Source: Lyngbya confervoides BDU141951
GTDB lineage: Bacteria > Cyanobacteriota > Cyanobacteriia > Thermosynechococcales > Thermosynechococcaceae
Direction of reading: 5' to 3'
Length of the DNA: 64,000 nucleotides
Assembly (NCBI RefSeq): GCF_000817775.3
Contig: NZ_JTHE03000061.1
Location: 1-64,000, forward strand
Part shown: in pieces, positions 24,568-63,957 of the stretch
How the letters are laid out: each line of letters begins with the position of its first letter
Position numbering within the stretch: position 1 is the stretch's first letter
Program-made: the position numbers and the translations under genes
Notes under the pieces: model-generated
Told to the model about the DNA's origin: nothing
The model's database searches: none
Seen by the model: only the letters and a program-made list of their open reading frames with translations

Positions 24568-24679
24568 CTAGCCCTGTCAAGGCAGTAGGGGACGATCGAT
24601 ATATTAATGGCGTGAGGAGTAAGTGAATCAAAAAAGATATCGGAGTCGAAACACGGCCAGACGCCCGAATTCTTTTTTC

Positions 24680-24713
24680 AAAAAAGAGAACCTAAATTTA
24701 GGTTCTCTTTTTT
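24680..24713. terminator. 34-bp perfect palindrome, bidirectional terminator
   Basis: Seventeen bases starting AAAAAAGAGAACC are followed by their exact complement ending in TTTTTT, so either transcript forms a hairpin followed by a U-run. The GC content of the stem is low. On the plus strand no gene precedes it within 250 bp. Confidence 0.7.
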
Positions 24714-36006: not shown

Positions 36007-37530
36007 ATGACTCACACCAGTGTCGTTTGGTTTCGCAACGATTTACGAGTTCACGACCATGCTCCACTGCACCATGCCGGCCAACAGGCCACCAGGTTAA
36101 TTTGTCTCTACTGCCTTGACCCGCGGCAGTTCGGGAAAACTCAGTGGGGGTTTCCCAAAACCGGAGCCTTTCGCGCCCAATTTTTGCTGGAAAGCCTGCA
36201 GGATTTGCGCCAATCGCTCCAGAGCCTTGGATCTAATCTATGGATCTATCGCGGATGTCCCGAGGAGGTCATTCCAAATCTGGTCGCGCAAACTGGGGCC
36301 ACCCAGGTGCTATTCCATCGCGAGGTCACCGATGAAGAAGTGCGGGTTGAACGGGCGCTGCAACGGGCGCTCCAACCTCTCAAGGTGGGCTATTTGAGAT
36401 TTTGGGGCAGTACGCTCTACCATCCCCAGGATTTACCCCTTAAGATTCGGGACATTCCTGAAGTATTCACGCAATTTCGCCAGCAAGTTGAGCGGCATTC
36501 CAGAATTGCCGAGATGTTACCGCCCCCAACCCAGCTTCCCGCTGGACCCGACCTAGCCCCTGGCCCCATCCCGGATCTGACAGACCTAGGCCTGACACCA
36601 CCGCCGGTGGATCCGCGATCGCAGTTTATCTTCAAGGGGGGAGAAACTGCGGGAAAGGCCCGAATGCAGGACTATATCTGGACGTTAGATCGGCTGCGGG
36701 TCTACAAACAGACCCGCAATGGCATGTTGAACCCCCACGATGCCTCCCGATTTTCGCCCTGGCTTGCCCTGGGCTGCCTTTCTCCCCGGTCCGTTTTTCA
36801 GCAAATCCAGCAGTACGAACAAGAGCGCATCCAAAACGATTCAACCTATTGGCTCTACTTCGAACTGCTCTGGCGGGACTACTTTCGATTTATCTGTGCG
36901 AAACACGGCAATCAAATCTTTCAAATTGAGGGGCTGCGCGGCTTGAAGATCCCCTGGAAACAAGACCGCCAGCTGTTTCAGGCCTGGGCAGCGGGAAAAA
37001 CAGGCTATCCTCTCATCGATGCCAACATGCGTGAACTGGCTGCCACAGGGTTTATGTCCAATCGCGGTCGCCAAAATGTGGCGAGCTTCCTGACCAAAAA
37101 TTTGGGCCTTAATTGGCAACTGGGGGCAGAGTGGTTCGAATCTCTCCTCATCGACTATGACGTCTGCAGCAACTGGGGCAACTGGAACTACACAGCGGGA
37201 GTGGGCAATGATGCCCGTGGCTTTCGCTTTTTTAATGTTTTCAAACAGGCTCAGGACTACGATCCTCAAGGCGACTACGTTAAGCACTGGATCCCAGAAT
37301 TAGCCCAGGTGCCCGCGGCCAAGGTCCACGCGCTGAGCAAACTCCAACCCGTGGATCAGCAGCGGTTTGGCGTGCAAGTGGGCAAGGACTATCCCGAGCC
37401 CCTAGTGGACCTGTGGCAGTCCGCTAAGGCCAATGAAAAGGTTTACGAGCAGGCCAGAAGATCCGAATCCCGACGATCTTCTCGGGGACAGGGCGTTCCT
37501 CGAAGCCAGTCGGCCTCACGCAGCCGCTAG
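36007..37530 (+). CDS. Cryptochrome DASH
   Basis: 507 residues of the photolyase/cryptochrome family. It starts with VVWFRNDLRVHDH, the antenna-domain pattern, has the TGAFRAQFLLESL that marks DASH and the FAD-binding C-terminal half with GREWF-like LLIDYDVCSNWGNWNYTAGVGNDARGFRFFN. DASH proteins repair cyclobutane dimers in single-stranded DNA and may signal blue light. The tail is Arg/Ser-rich. Its stop overlaps that of the histidine kinase by 4 bases in opposite orientation. Confidence 0.92.
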   Translation: MTHTSVVWFRNDLRVHDHAPLHHAGQQATRLICLYCLDPRQFGKTQWGFPKTGAFRAQFLLESLQDLRQSLQSLGSNLWIYRGCPEEVIPNLVAQTGATQVLFHREVTDEEVRVERALQRALQPLKVGYLRFWGSTLYHPQDLPLKIRDIPEVFTQFRQQVERHSRIAEMLPPPTQLPAGPDLAPGPIPDLTDLGLTPPPVDPRSQFIFKGGETAGKARMQDYIWTLDRLRVYKQTRNGMLNPHDASRFSPWLALGCLSPRSVFQQIQQYEQERIQNDSTYWLYFELLWRDYFRFICAKHGNQIFQIEGLRGLKIPWKQDRQLFQAWAAGKTGYPLIDANMRELAATGFMSNRGRQNVASFLTKNLGLNWQLGAEWFESLLIDYDVCSNWGNWNYTAGVGNDARGFRFFNVFKQAQDYDPQGDYVKHWIPELAQVPAAKVHALSKLQPVDQQRFGVQVGKDYPEPLVDLWQSAKANEKVYEQARRSESRRSSRGQGVPRSQSASRSR

Positions 37531-61883: not shown

Positions 61884-62228
61884 CTACTCTGCCTTCTTAG
61901 CCGCAGCCGCCTTACCCGTGTTGATTTTATCAATCATCACGCGCGTTAGATCCTGACGATGTCCCTGCTTTTTGCGGGTCTTCTTCTTCGGCTGCATTTT
62001 GTAAACCACAACCTTCCGCCCCCGATGGTGCTGCATGACCGTTGCTTCCACAGTAGCCCCTTGCACAAGGGGCTGGCCGAGGGTCACCTTGCCGTCTTCA
62101 TTCACCAGCAGCACTTGGTCGAGGGTGACTTTGTCCTCTGCCTCTGCACTGAGACGCTCAATGTCGTAATACCGTCCGGGTTCTACCCGGAGTTGCTTCC
62201 CACCCGTTTCGATAATTGCGTATGTCAT
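61884..62228 (-). CDS. rplU: 50S ribosomal protein L21
   Basis: 114 residues from [26 protein letters not shown], the L21 start; a long frame upstream adds 20 unlike residues. The Lys-rich [26 protein letters not shown] is typical. First gene of rplU-rpmA. Confidence 0.97.
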
Positions 62229-62266
62229 AGCGTGGAATGTCCTTTCAATCAATTCGCCGTACAGGT

Positions 62267-62308
62267 TCCTGAGAGTCTTAAGGGGCAAGCGCCCAAGAGG
62301 ACTCAGGA
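62267..62308 (-). promoter_or_regulatory. Hairpin in the rplU leader
   Basis: On the minus strand, upstream of rplU, TCCTGAGTC (62308-62300) can pair with GACTCTCAGGA (62277-62267, with a two-base bulge), with an inner GGGC/GCCC stem. The structured leader lies 40-80 bases before the start codon. Ribosomal protein leaders often bind the encoded protein; such a role for L21 here is only a possibility. Confidence 0.4.
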
Positions 62309-62601
62309 TTTTTGCCTATCTGAACCTGATCCGAGCGGAGTCAAGCCATCTATAGCTTTGTGGCTTCTGAATTTTTGAGATAACAAAGTTAAAACTCAGC
62401 TGATTCAAAACACCAGCTTACCAGTATCATAAATAAGCTGAGTCTCTGTCAAGTTTTGGGGCACCCATTTTACTGAGATCTGCTCCTGACCAGAGGCATC
62501 CCCCCGTGGATTTGCCTGCAAGCAGATTTGTCTGAAAGCAGGATCTAAGAGGCCAGTCAACTGTTCTATTGGGAAGGTGTTTATAAATTCTCTATGTCCT
62601 G

Positions 62602-62607
62602 TATAAT
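62602..62607 (+). promoter_or_regulatory. Promoter -10 box of tRNA-Leu/cca
   Basis: Consensus TATAAT 13 bases before the mature 5' end of tRNA-Leu. The -35 17 bases upstream (GTTTAT) is weak. Transcription would begin only a few bases before the tRNA, so the same transcript would cover tRNA and cca. Confidence 0.6.
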
Positions 62608-62619
62608 GAGTGAGCTTGA

Positions 62620-62701
62620 GGGCGGATGGCGAAATTGGTAGACGCACCACACTCAAAATGTGGCGACTTCGGTCGTGAGAGTTCGAGTCTCTCTCCGCCC
62701 A
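62620..62701 (+). tRNA. tRNA-Leu (anticodon CAA)
   Basis: Complete class II cloverleaf: acceptor GGGCGGA/TCCGCCC, D arm GCG/CGC, anticodon stem CCACA/TGTGG around CTCAAAA (anticodon CAA), variable arm CGAC-TTCG-GTCG, T arm GAGAG/CTCTC around TTCGAGT, discriminator A62701. No CCA encoded. The discriminator A is the first base of the cca start codon. Confidence 0.96.
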
Positions 62702-63957
62702 TGCAATCGGTACTTAACCCGCAAAGCTGGCCCTTTGAGCTGGAGGATTTACCCAACTCAGCCCGTTTAGTGGGTGGCGGCGTTCGAGATGCCCTCTTAG
62801 GCCACTCTTCAGGCTATCTGGATCTAGACTTTGTCGTTAAAGATAGTCCGGTTTCAATCGCCCAGGCCATCGCCCGCCGTTACCAGGCTGGCTATGTTCT
62901 GTTGGATGCAGAGCGTCAGATTGCGCGCGTGGTTTTTCCCAAGACCACCGCTGACTTTGCGCTGCAGGTGGGCAAGTCCCTGGAAGAGGATTTGCACCGC
63001 CGGGACTTTACCATTAACGCCATCGCCTACCGTCCCCATGATGGCAAAATCATGGATCCCCTGAACGGCTATGCCGATCTGCAACGCGGAACCATTCGGA
63101 TGATTTCCGAAGCCAACCTGCGTGATGATCCGCTGCGGTTGATGCGAGCCTACCGCCAAGCCGCCCAGCTTAATTTCACCCTGGATCCAGAGACGCAAAA
63201 TGCCATTCGAGAATTTGCCCCCCTCCTCTCTCAGGTTGCCGCAGAGCGCATCAAGGTGGAGCTAGGCTACTTGCTGAGCAGCAGTGCAGGGACGCCCTGG
63301 CTGTCGCAGCTCTACAAAGATGGCCTCCTAGAGCACTGCTTTCCAAACCTCTCGACGGAAAGCATCGCAAGACTGGCCGCCATTGATGAGGCGGAGGGGA
63401 TGTTGAGTCGTCAATATCCCGATTTGGCCTCTAAATTGCATCAGCGGCTCAGCGATCGCGCTCAAGGTGCAGAGGCCCTGCGGCGCACAGTTCTCTCCAC
63501 GGTCAAGCTGCTGGCCTTGGTGGCCCTCGACCCGGACACCGCTGAGGCTACGCTGCTGAAGCTAAAATATAGCCGCAATGAAATTCGCTTAATTTGTACC
63601 GTCATTCGCGGCATTCAAGCCTTTGCACAGCAGACGTCCCAAATTTTGGGGTCAAAGACTCAGCAATATCAGTTCTTCCAGCTCATGGGCAAATTCTTTC
63701 CGGCCTTTGTGGTGGTCAACCTGGCCATGGGCGGTTGTTTAGCGCAGCTTCAGCCCCTGATTCACGCCTATGGAGATCCCTCTAGTCCGGTGGCCCACCC
63801 CCAACCCCTCCTTTCCGGCTATGAGTTAATTCAGGCCCTGCACCTATCTCCAGGCCCCAATATCGGGAAGCTGCTCACGGCGATCGCCTATGCCCAAGCC
63901 GAAGGCCAGGTCCACAGCAAAGCCGAGGCCATCGCCTATGCTCGCCGTCAGCTCTAG
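62701..63957 (+). CDS. cca: CCA-adding enzyme / tRNA nucleotidyltransferase
   Basis: Adds the 3' CCA (or part of it) to tRNAs, which in this genome lack encoded CCA. 418 residues from MQSVLNPQSW. Nucleotidyltransferase motif RLVGGGVRDALLGHSSGYLDLDFVV near the start, then RRDFTINAIAYRPHDGKIMDPLNGYADL, LRDDPLRLMRAYRQAAQLNF and the helical tail. Cyanobacterial genomes may split C- and A-adding roles; which this one has cannot be told. An upstream in-frame ATG at 62626 lies inside the tRNA and gives the well-known false extension MAKLVDAPHSK. The start codon is joined to the tRNA end. Confidence 0.93.
   Translation: MQSVLNPQSWPFELEDLPNSARLVGGGVRDALLGHSSGYLDLDFVVKDSPVSIAQAIARRYQAGYVLLDAERQIARVVFPKTTADFALQVGKSLEEDLHRRDFTINAIAYRPHDGKIMDPLNGYADLQRGTIRMISEANLRDDPLRLMRAYRQAAQLNFTLDPETQNAIREFAPLLSQVAAERIKVELGYLLSSSAGTPWLSQLYKDGLLEHCFPNLSTESIARLAAIDEAEGMLSRQYPDLASKLHQRLSDRAQGAEALRRTVLSTVKLLALVALDPDTAEATLLKLKYSRNEIRLICTVIRGIQAFAQQTSQILGSKTQQYQFFQLMGKFFPAFVVVNLAMGGCLAQLQPLIHAYGDPSSPVAHPQPLLSGYELIQALHLSPGPNIGKLLTAIAYAQAEGQVHSKAEAIAYARRQL

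Follow-up and report, generated by a model that had tools for sequence, protein, structure and literature searches.

Can a single nucleotide serve both as the last base of a tRNA and as the first base of a start codon, when the enzyme encoded downstream itself acts on tRNA ends? The question is raised by a locus of Lyngbya confervoides BDU141951 that lies near the end of the window, the whole stretch of 64,000 nucleotides (contig NZ_JTHE03000061.1, positions 1 to 64,000) that was analysed. There the gap between tRNA-Leu(CAA) and a tRNA nucleotidyltransferase gene is 0 nt, so that the tRNA abuts the coding sequence and one base is common to both. The features concerned are as follows.

61884..62288, minus strand: ORF of ribosomal protein L21, named from its sequence; the listed start is TTG, and an ATG further in is probably the real start
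62580..62607, plus strand: promoter-like site TTTATA-16 nt-TATAAT of the tRNA-Leu/cca unit (promoter scan, 10 of 12 consensus bases)
62620..62701, plus strand: tRNA-Leu(CAA), CCA not encoded, single copy (ARAGORN, Rfam)
62626..62628, plus strand: in-frame ATG inside the tRNA, a possible alternative start (443-aa ORF, duplex energy)
62701..62701, plus strand: the shared base, A of both discriminator and start codon (tRNA calls, ORF, stem pairing)
62701..63957, plus strand: tRNA nucleotidyltransferase gene, probably of CC-adding type, 418 aa, single copy (ORF, Pfam, motifs, loop)
62770..62772, plus strand: next downstream in-frame start, GTG codon 24, adjoining the GG.VRD motif

ARAGORN and Rfam (RF00005) agree on the tRNA at 62620-62701 (+), and its acceptor stem, GGGCGGA/TCCGCCC, is paired at 7/7 positions, which makes A62701 the discriminator (position 73). 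The 3' CCA is not encoded. The same A opens ATG 62701-62703, the start of a 418-aa ORF whose stop is at 63957. The next downstream ATG, GTG or TTG in frame is GTG 62770 (codon 24), and a start there is not expected to give a working enzyme. An earlier note on this DNA had claimed that the tRNA ends on the first base of the gene's ATG, that a TATAAT stands at 62602 and that the next downstream in-frame start falls in the catalytic motif; the first is exact, the second is borne out at 62602-62607, and the third agrees with the position of GTG 62770 at GG.VRD. Unmentioned there was the upstream frame, which is open across the whole tRNA and holds ATG 62626 and TTG 62635. A second genomic copy of either tRNA-Leu(CAA) or the enzyme gene was ruled out; since each is single-copy, both products must be made.

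TG often follows a discriminator A. A generic tRNA 3'-end A|TG pattern gave 25 matches in 29 genomes of the family, 14 of them verified tRNAs, and none of these 14 starts a conserved gene. With U behind almost every discriminator, half-built AUG codons abound, and a single deletion can complete one. What is rare is for such an A|TG to open a gene that is conserved and probably essential; no case of a bacterial discriminator inside a start codon was found in open-licence papers.

The encoded enzyme

The 418-aa protein is a class II tRNA nucleotidyltransferase that scores above cut-off with Pfam PF01743, PF12627 and PF13735. Its head and neck domains are present with their catalytic motifs, and the GG.VRD, DLD and RD motifs are invariant across 17 sequences. 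The flexible loop that would precede RRD is missing, with 75 residues from GG.VRD to RRD versus 104 in an A-adding-like partner. This partner, a 901-aa ORF elsewhere in the same genome (G000:C55), matches the A-adding enzyme model NF041569 end to end with an E value of 1.7e-134, although it scores below the model's strict curated cut-off. The best PDB match of the 418-aa enzyme is 3wfo, which we take to be the Aquifex CC-adding enzyme. Loss of the flexible loop is a hallmark of bacterial CC-adding enzymes (PMC7014341, PMC3925840). Because the loop is absent and a separate A-adding-like enzyme is encoded elsewhere in the genome, the gene product is probably a CC-adding enzyme, in place of the CCA-adding enzyme that the earlier note had named. 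As such, it would act directly on the tRNA end made by RNase Z, attaching C74 and C75 and leaving A76 to another enzyme. The bacterial CC-adding enzymes already described (Aquifex AaS and others; PMC3925840) likewise combine a class II core without flexible loop with a separate A-adding-like enzyme, and no difference from them was seen in the protein; the oddity here is the gene's junction with the tRNA.

The gene is alive, as judged by the kept catalytic motifs, 40-56% identity to relatives and N-terminal residues that align right down to the ATG. It is probably essential.

Transcription, processing and translation of the unit

Only one promoter-like site, TTTATA-16-TATAAT, was returned on this strand by the promoter scan, which placed none inside the tRNA. 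Its -10 at 62602-62607 predicts a transcription start at about 62614, and an identical or similar -10 (often TTGTATAATG) stands upstream of the same tRNA in relatives. TANNNT hexamers in 62560-62710 begin only at 62584 and 62602. The L21 and L27 genes upstream point away from the tRNA, and with L21 so oriented the transcript is not supplied by an upstream co-directional gene. With a gap of 0 nt there is no room for a terminator or for a promoter of the gene's own, and both were ruled out. Given the sole promoter-like site, the lack of an internal TANNNT and the divergence of L21 and L27, the start of the enzyme message most likely lies 5' of the tRNA.

A promoter within the tRNA that has no clear -10 could instead drive a separate message with a short leader or none, which would not depend on processing of the tRNA. 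Cyanobacteria often have internal start sites, and leaderless messages are on record for them: 51 in Synechocystis 6803 (number cited in PMC9938897) and 19 in Synechococcus UTEX 2973 (PMC6091082). However, no TANNNT occurs between 62608 and 62710, no -10 hexamer is positioned for a start at 62701 as in a leaderless mRNA, and the sequence of a tRNA is too constrained for building a promoter, all of which make this reading rather unlikely.

The fate of a common transcript would depend on RNase Z. The genome encodes one that matches the ordinary bacterial family, which rules out an enzyme of the Thermotoga type. The base that follows the discriminator (+1) is U here, as it is in at least 33 of the 39 tRNAs that this genome encodes without CCA; in B. 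subtilis, RNase Z is stimulated about 200-fold by a U at one of the first two downstream positions (PMC10100781), and RACE mapping placed the cuts of the Streptococcus enzyme immediately behind the discriminator, with a 5' U left (PMC8549757). A cut after A62701 would leave 5'-UGCAAUCGG, which has no start codon before GTG 62770 and thus does not yield the translatable message of a tRNA-punctuated transcript. Because an ordinary RNase Z is encoded and U follows the discriminator, processing of tRNA-Leu(CAA) should decapitate the enzyme message; the proposal that the cut removes the A of AUG is in keeping with the encoded RNase Z, the U at +1 and the identity of A62701. Both this cut and the transcript common to tRNA and enzyme are predicted from sequence.

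If some cuts fell one base early, before A73, they would release a leaderless message beginning 5'-AUG together with a tRNA one base short, either lost or repaired with A. Overlapping mitochondrial tRNAs are a precedent, as they lack their last base at first and have it restored as an A, but we know of no cyanobacterial enzyme that restores a missing discriminator. Leaderless AUG messages are translated in cyanobacteria (PMC9938897; PMC6091082), whereas mapped bacterial RNase Z products end exactly at the discriminator (PMC8549757). We consider early cutting improbable.

Translation from ATG 62701 is also expected to be inefficient. No Shine-Dalgarno sequence stands before it (duplex energy -2.5 kcal/mol), and opening the region from -15 to +15 in the precursor would take 11.4 kcal/mol versus 2.0-9.4 in six relatives whose tRNA and gene are separated by a spacer. 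With its initiation region held in the acceptor stem in this way, an essential gene may not be translated strongly enough. This brings in the ATG at 62626, from which the enzyme would carry a 25-residue tRNA-derived extension, MAKLVDAPHSKCGDFGRESSSLSPP, if ribosomes loaded before the tRNA folds; loaded transcripts would then become mRNA and the others tRNA. The frame is open through the tRNA, giving a 443-aa ORF, a Shine-Dalgarno-like UGAGGGCGG lies just upstream with a duplex energy of -6.7 kcal/mol, better than that of ATG 62701, and the Met at position 26 would replace the Ile or Leu of relatives. However, this purine-rich stretch belongs mostly to the acceptor stem and is explained by the needs of the tRNA, only about 12 nt would remain as 5' leader, tRNA-derived ORFs readily arise by chance, and relatives have GTG or another codon at the site and frames that are not joined to the enzyme. 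Initiation inside the tRNA seems doubtful to us; together with the unrecognised internal promoter, it is the most serious rival to the reading that we prefer.

That reading, to which we assign a probability of roughly one half, is an either/or tRNA-mRNA precursor left by spacer loss, with one promoter and with enzyme made from an uncut minority by passive partition. The promoter upstream of the tRNA would read both tRNA-Leu(CAA) and the enzyme gene, and each precursor RNA would serve one purpose only, as tRNA or as message. Once cut by RNase Z after the discriminator, it would become a tRNA and a headless message, UGCAA...; left uncut, it could be translated from AUG 62701 at a low rate, since the preceding bases are held in the acceptor stem and a Shine-Dalgarno sequence is lacking. 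A minority of precursors, spared by RNase Z, would suffice for a low-abundance catalyst. The arrangement would be tolerated at low enzyme demand, as a passive partition and not as evolved control.

Loss of the spacer in relation to other genomes

Approximately 80 cyanobacterial loci of the enzyme were inspected by protein. Gaps between tRNA and gene were measured at the retrieved loci, where the relatives are other genera of the family. The pair of tRNA-Leu(CAA) and enzyme gene is kept in 11 relatives from three genera (g4, g9 and g11, the last of which includes Acaryochloris as judged by locus L041, whose junction matches that of L013). In the rest of the family, and in about 50 loci of other cyanobacteria, the gene is without a preceding tRNA. 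In the 11 relatives, the likely start codon lies 25 to about 165 nt beyond the tRNA end, the closest being a TTG start 25 nt past the tRNA in genome G008. A gap of 0 nt is found in the window only, in 0 of 11 relatives. Relatives have proteins starting with MSIQ or something close to it, and it is their Ile to which the M encoded in the window is aligned; this fits a deletion of the spacer together with the first codons. Spacer loss is the simplest origin of the junction; the compared loci show that the spacer between tRNA-Leu(CAA) and the enzyme gene shrank in this lineage to the point at which the last base of the tRNA became the A of the start codon.

Other tRNA-gene pairs among the 41 tRNAs of this genome point the same way. 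tRNA-Gly(GCC) (L124, G000:C55:36205-36276) is separated by 2 nt from the panB ATG at 36279, while the pair is about 77-109 nt apart in three g4 relatives. A panB message cut by RNase Z would begin UUAUG and, although near-leaderless, would still be translatable, unlike that of the CC-adding enzyme. tRNA-Gln(TTG) lies 14 nt before a HAD-family phosphatase gene (L148, G000:C73:25525). Nearly every genome sampled in the family has this gene order (L148, L240-L258), with gaps that range from about 12 up to about 120 nt. In Acaryochloris-type relatives the gap is mostly 65-110 nt, in the small g6 genomes about 18 nt and in G010 about 12 nt. Since the panB and HAD spacers are also short, spacer loss is a general trend in this lineage and a special regulatory reason is less needed at tRNA-Leu(CAA). 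Several tRNA-gene pairs are conserved in the family. The HAD matches of several relatives, at L240, L245, L248, L250-L252 and L254-L256 each contain one in-frame stop, mostly TAA, possibly where the alignment overruns the end of the gene.

These comparisons bear on two further explanations. The first is that a spacer was dropped from the contig in assembly. The genome is a draft of 122 contigs and the comparison is limited to other genera; on the other hand, the tRNA and the enzyme's N-terminus are intact, exact removal of a spacer by error is unlikely, and a short spacer also occurs at panB. We hold this explanation to be very improbable.

The second is the feedback loop that the earlier note had raised as a possibility. 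Scarcity of the CC-adding enzyme would let tailless tRNAs pile up and slow RNase Z, leaving more uncut precursor and hence more enzyme. Cleavage of the precursor and translation of the enzyme are mutually exclusive by geometry, and what RNase Z produces, a tRNA whose last base is A73, is what the encoded enzyme uses as substrate, which gives such a loop a homeostatic sign. In its sharpest form, this single base would be a homeostat, at which the cut makes the enzyme's substrate while destroying its start codon, and slower maturation yields more enzyme; we think this as unlikely as the evolved circuit itself. An evolved circuit implies an arrangement conserved by selection, but the 0-nt gap is present in 0 of 11 relatives of three other genera; the spacers at panB and the HAD gene were shortened with no such logic and no obvious link to tRNA tails; and inhibition of RNase Z by tailless tRNA is an assumption for this organism. 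The earlier note had proposed to look for the 0-base gap in related genomes and held that its absence from all close relatives would refute the idea. It is absent from 11 of 11 relatives with the pair, that is, at the level of the family across three genera, which leaves the loop unsupported.

Comparable systems and further tRNA-gene pairs

Mitochondria offer the nearest likeness, in that RNase P and RNase Z free mRNAs which abut tRNAs. In such tRNA punctuation, as here, a tRNA adjoins a coding sequence and its excision would set the 5' end of the message. In the present locus, however, the last base of the tRNA is in the start codon, so that the normal cut would remove it instead of exposing it, and the organism is a bacterium in which most other tRNA genes have ordinary intergenic regions. 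Likewise, one RNase Z cut makes both a tRNA 3' end and the 5' end of the next RNA in the dicistronic tRNA-snoRNA genes of plants and in the tRNA-Val/sRNA8 precursor of Nanoarchaeum equitans (PMC3491384); there the downstream RNA is non-coding and survives, whereas here an mRNA would lose its start codon. The common promoter and transcript predicted for this locus are akin to those of bacterial tRNA-mRNA operons, such as the tRNA genes with tufB in E. coli, yet in those, and likewise in the relatives compared here, a spacer precedes the start codon.

What sets the locus apart is a conserved tRNA-gene tandem shrunk past the point at which ordinary processing would ruin the message. If ATG 62701 is used, one base cannot be in both a mature tRNA and a translatable message, and precursors must be split between the two. 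The competition between tRNA processing and translation would then be measurable at a natural locus, and a lower limit would be set on the uncut tRNA precursor that a bacterium keeps.

Two further pairs were recorded in this genome. tRNA-Ser(GGA) lies about 24 nt before a pepP-like (Xaa-Pro aminopeptidase-like) gene (L144, G000:C31:17852-19138, minus strand), a pair found in this genome only and not seen in relatives. tRNA-Arg(ACG) stands 62 nt before a gene with an MnmC2 tRNA methyltransferase domain-like product (L149, G000:C113), and is thus another tRNA paired with a gene for tRNA maturation. Elsewhere in the window, a Cyano-1 RNA (RF01701) scores above its gathering score at 24606-24680 (+).
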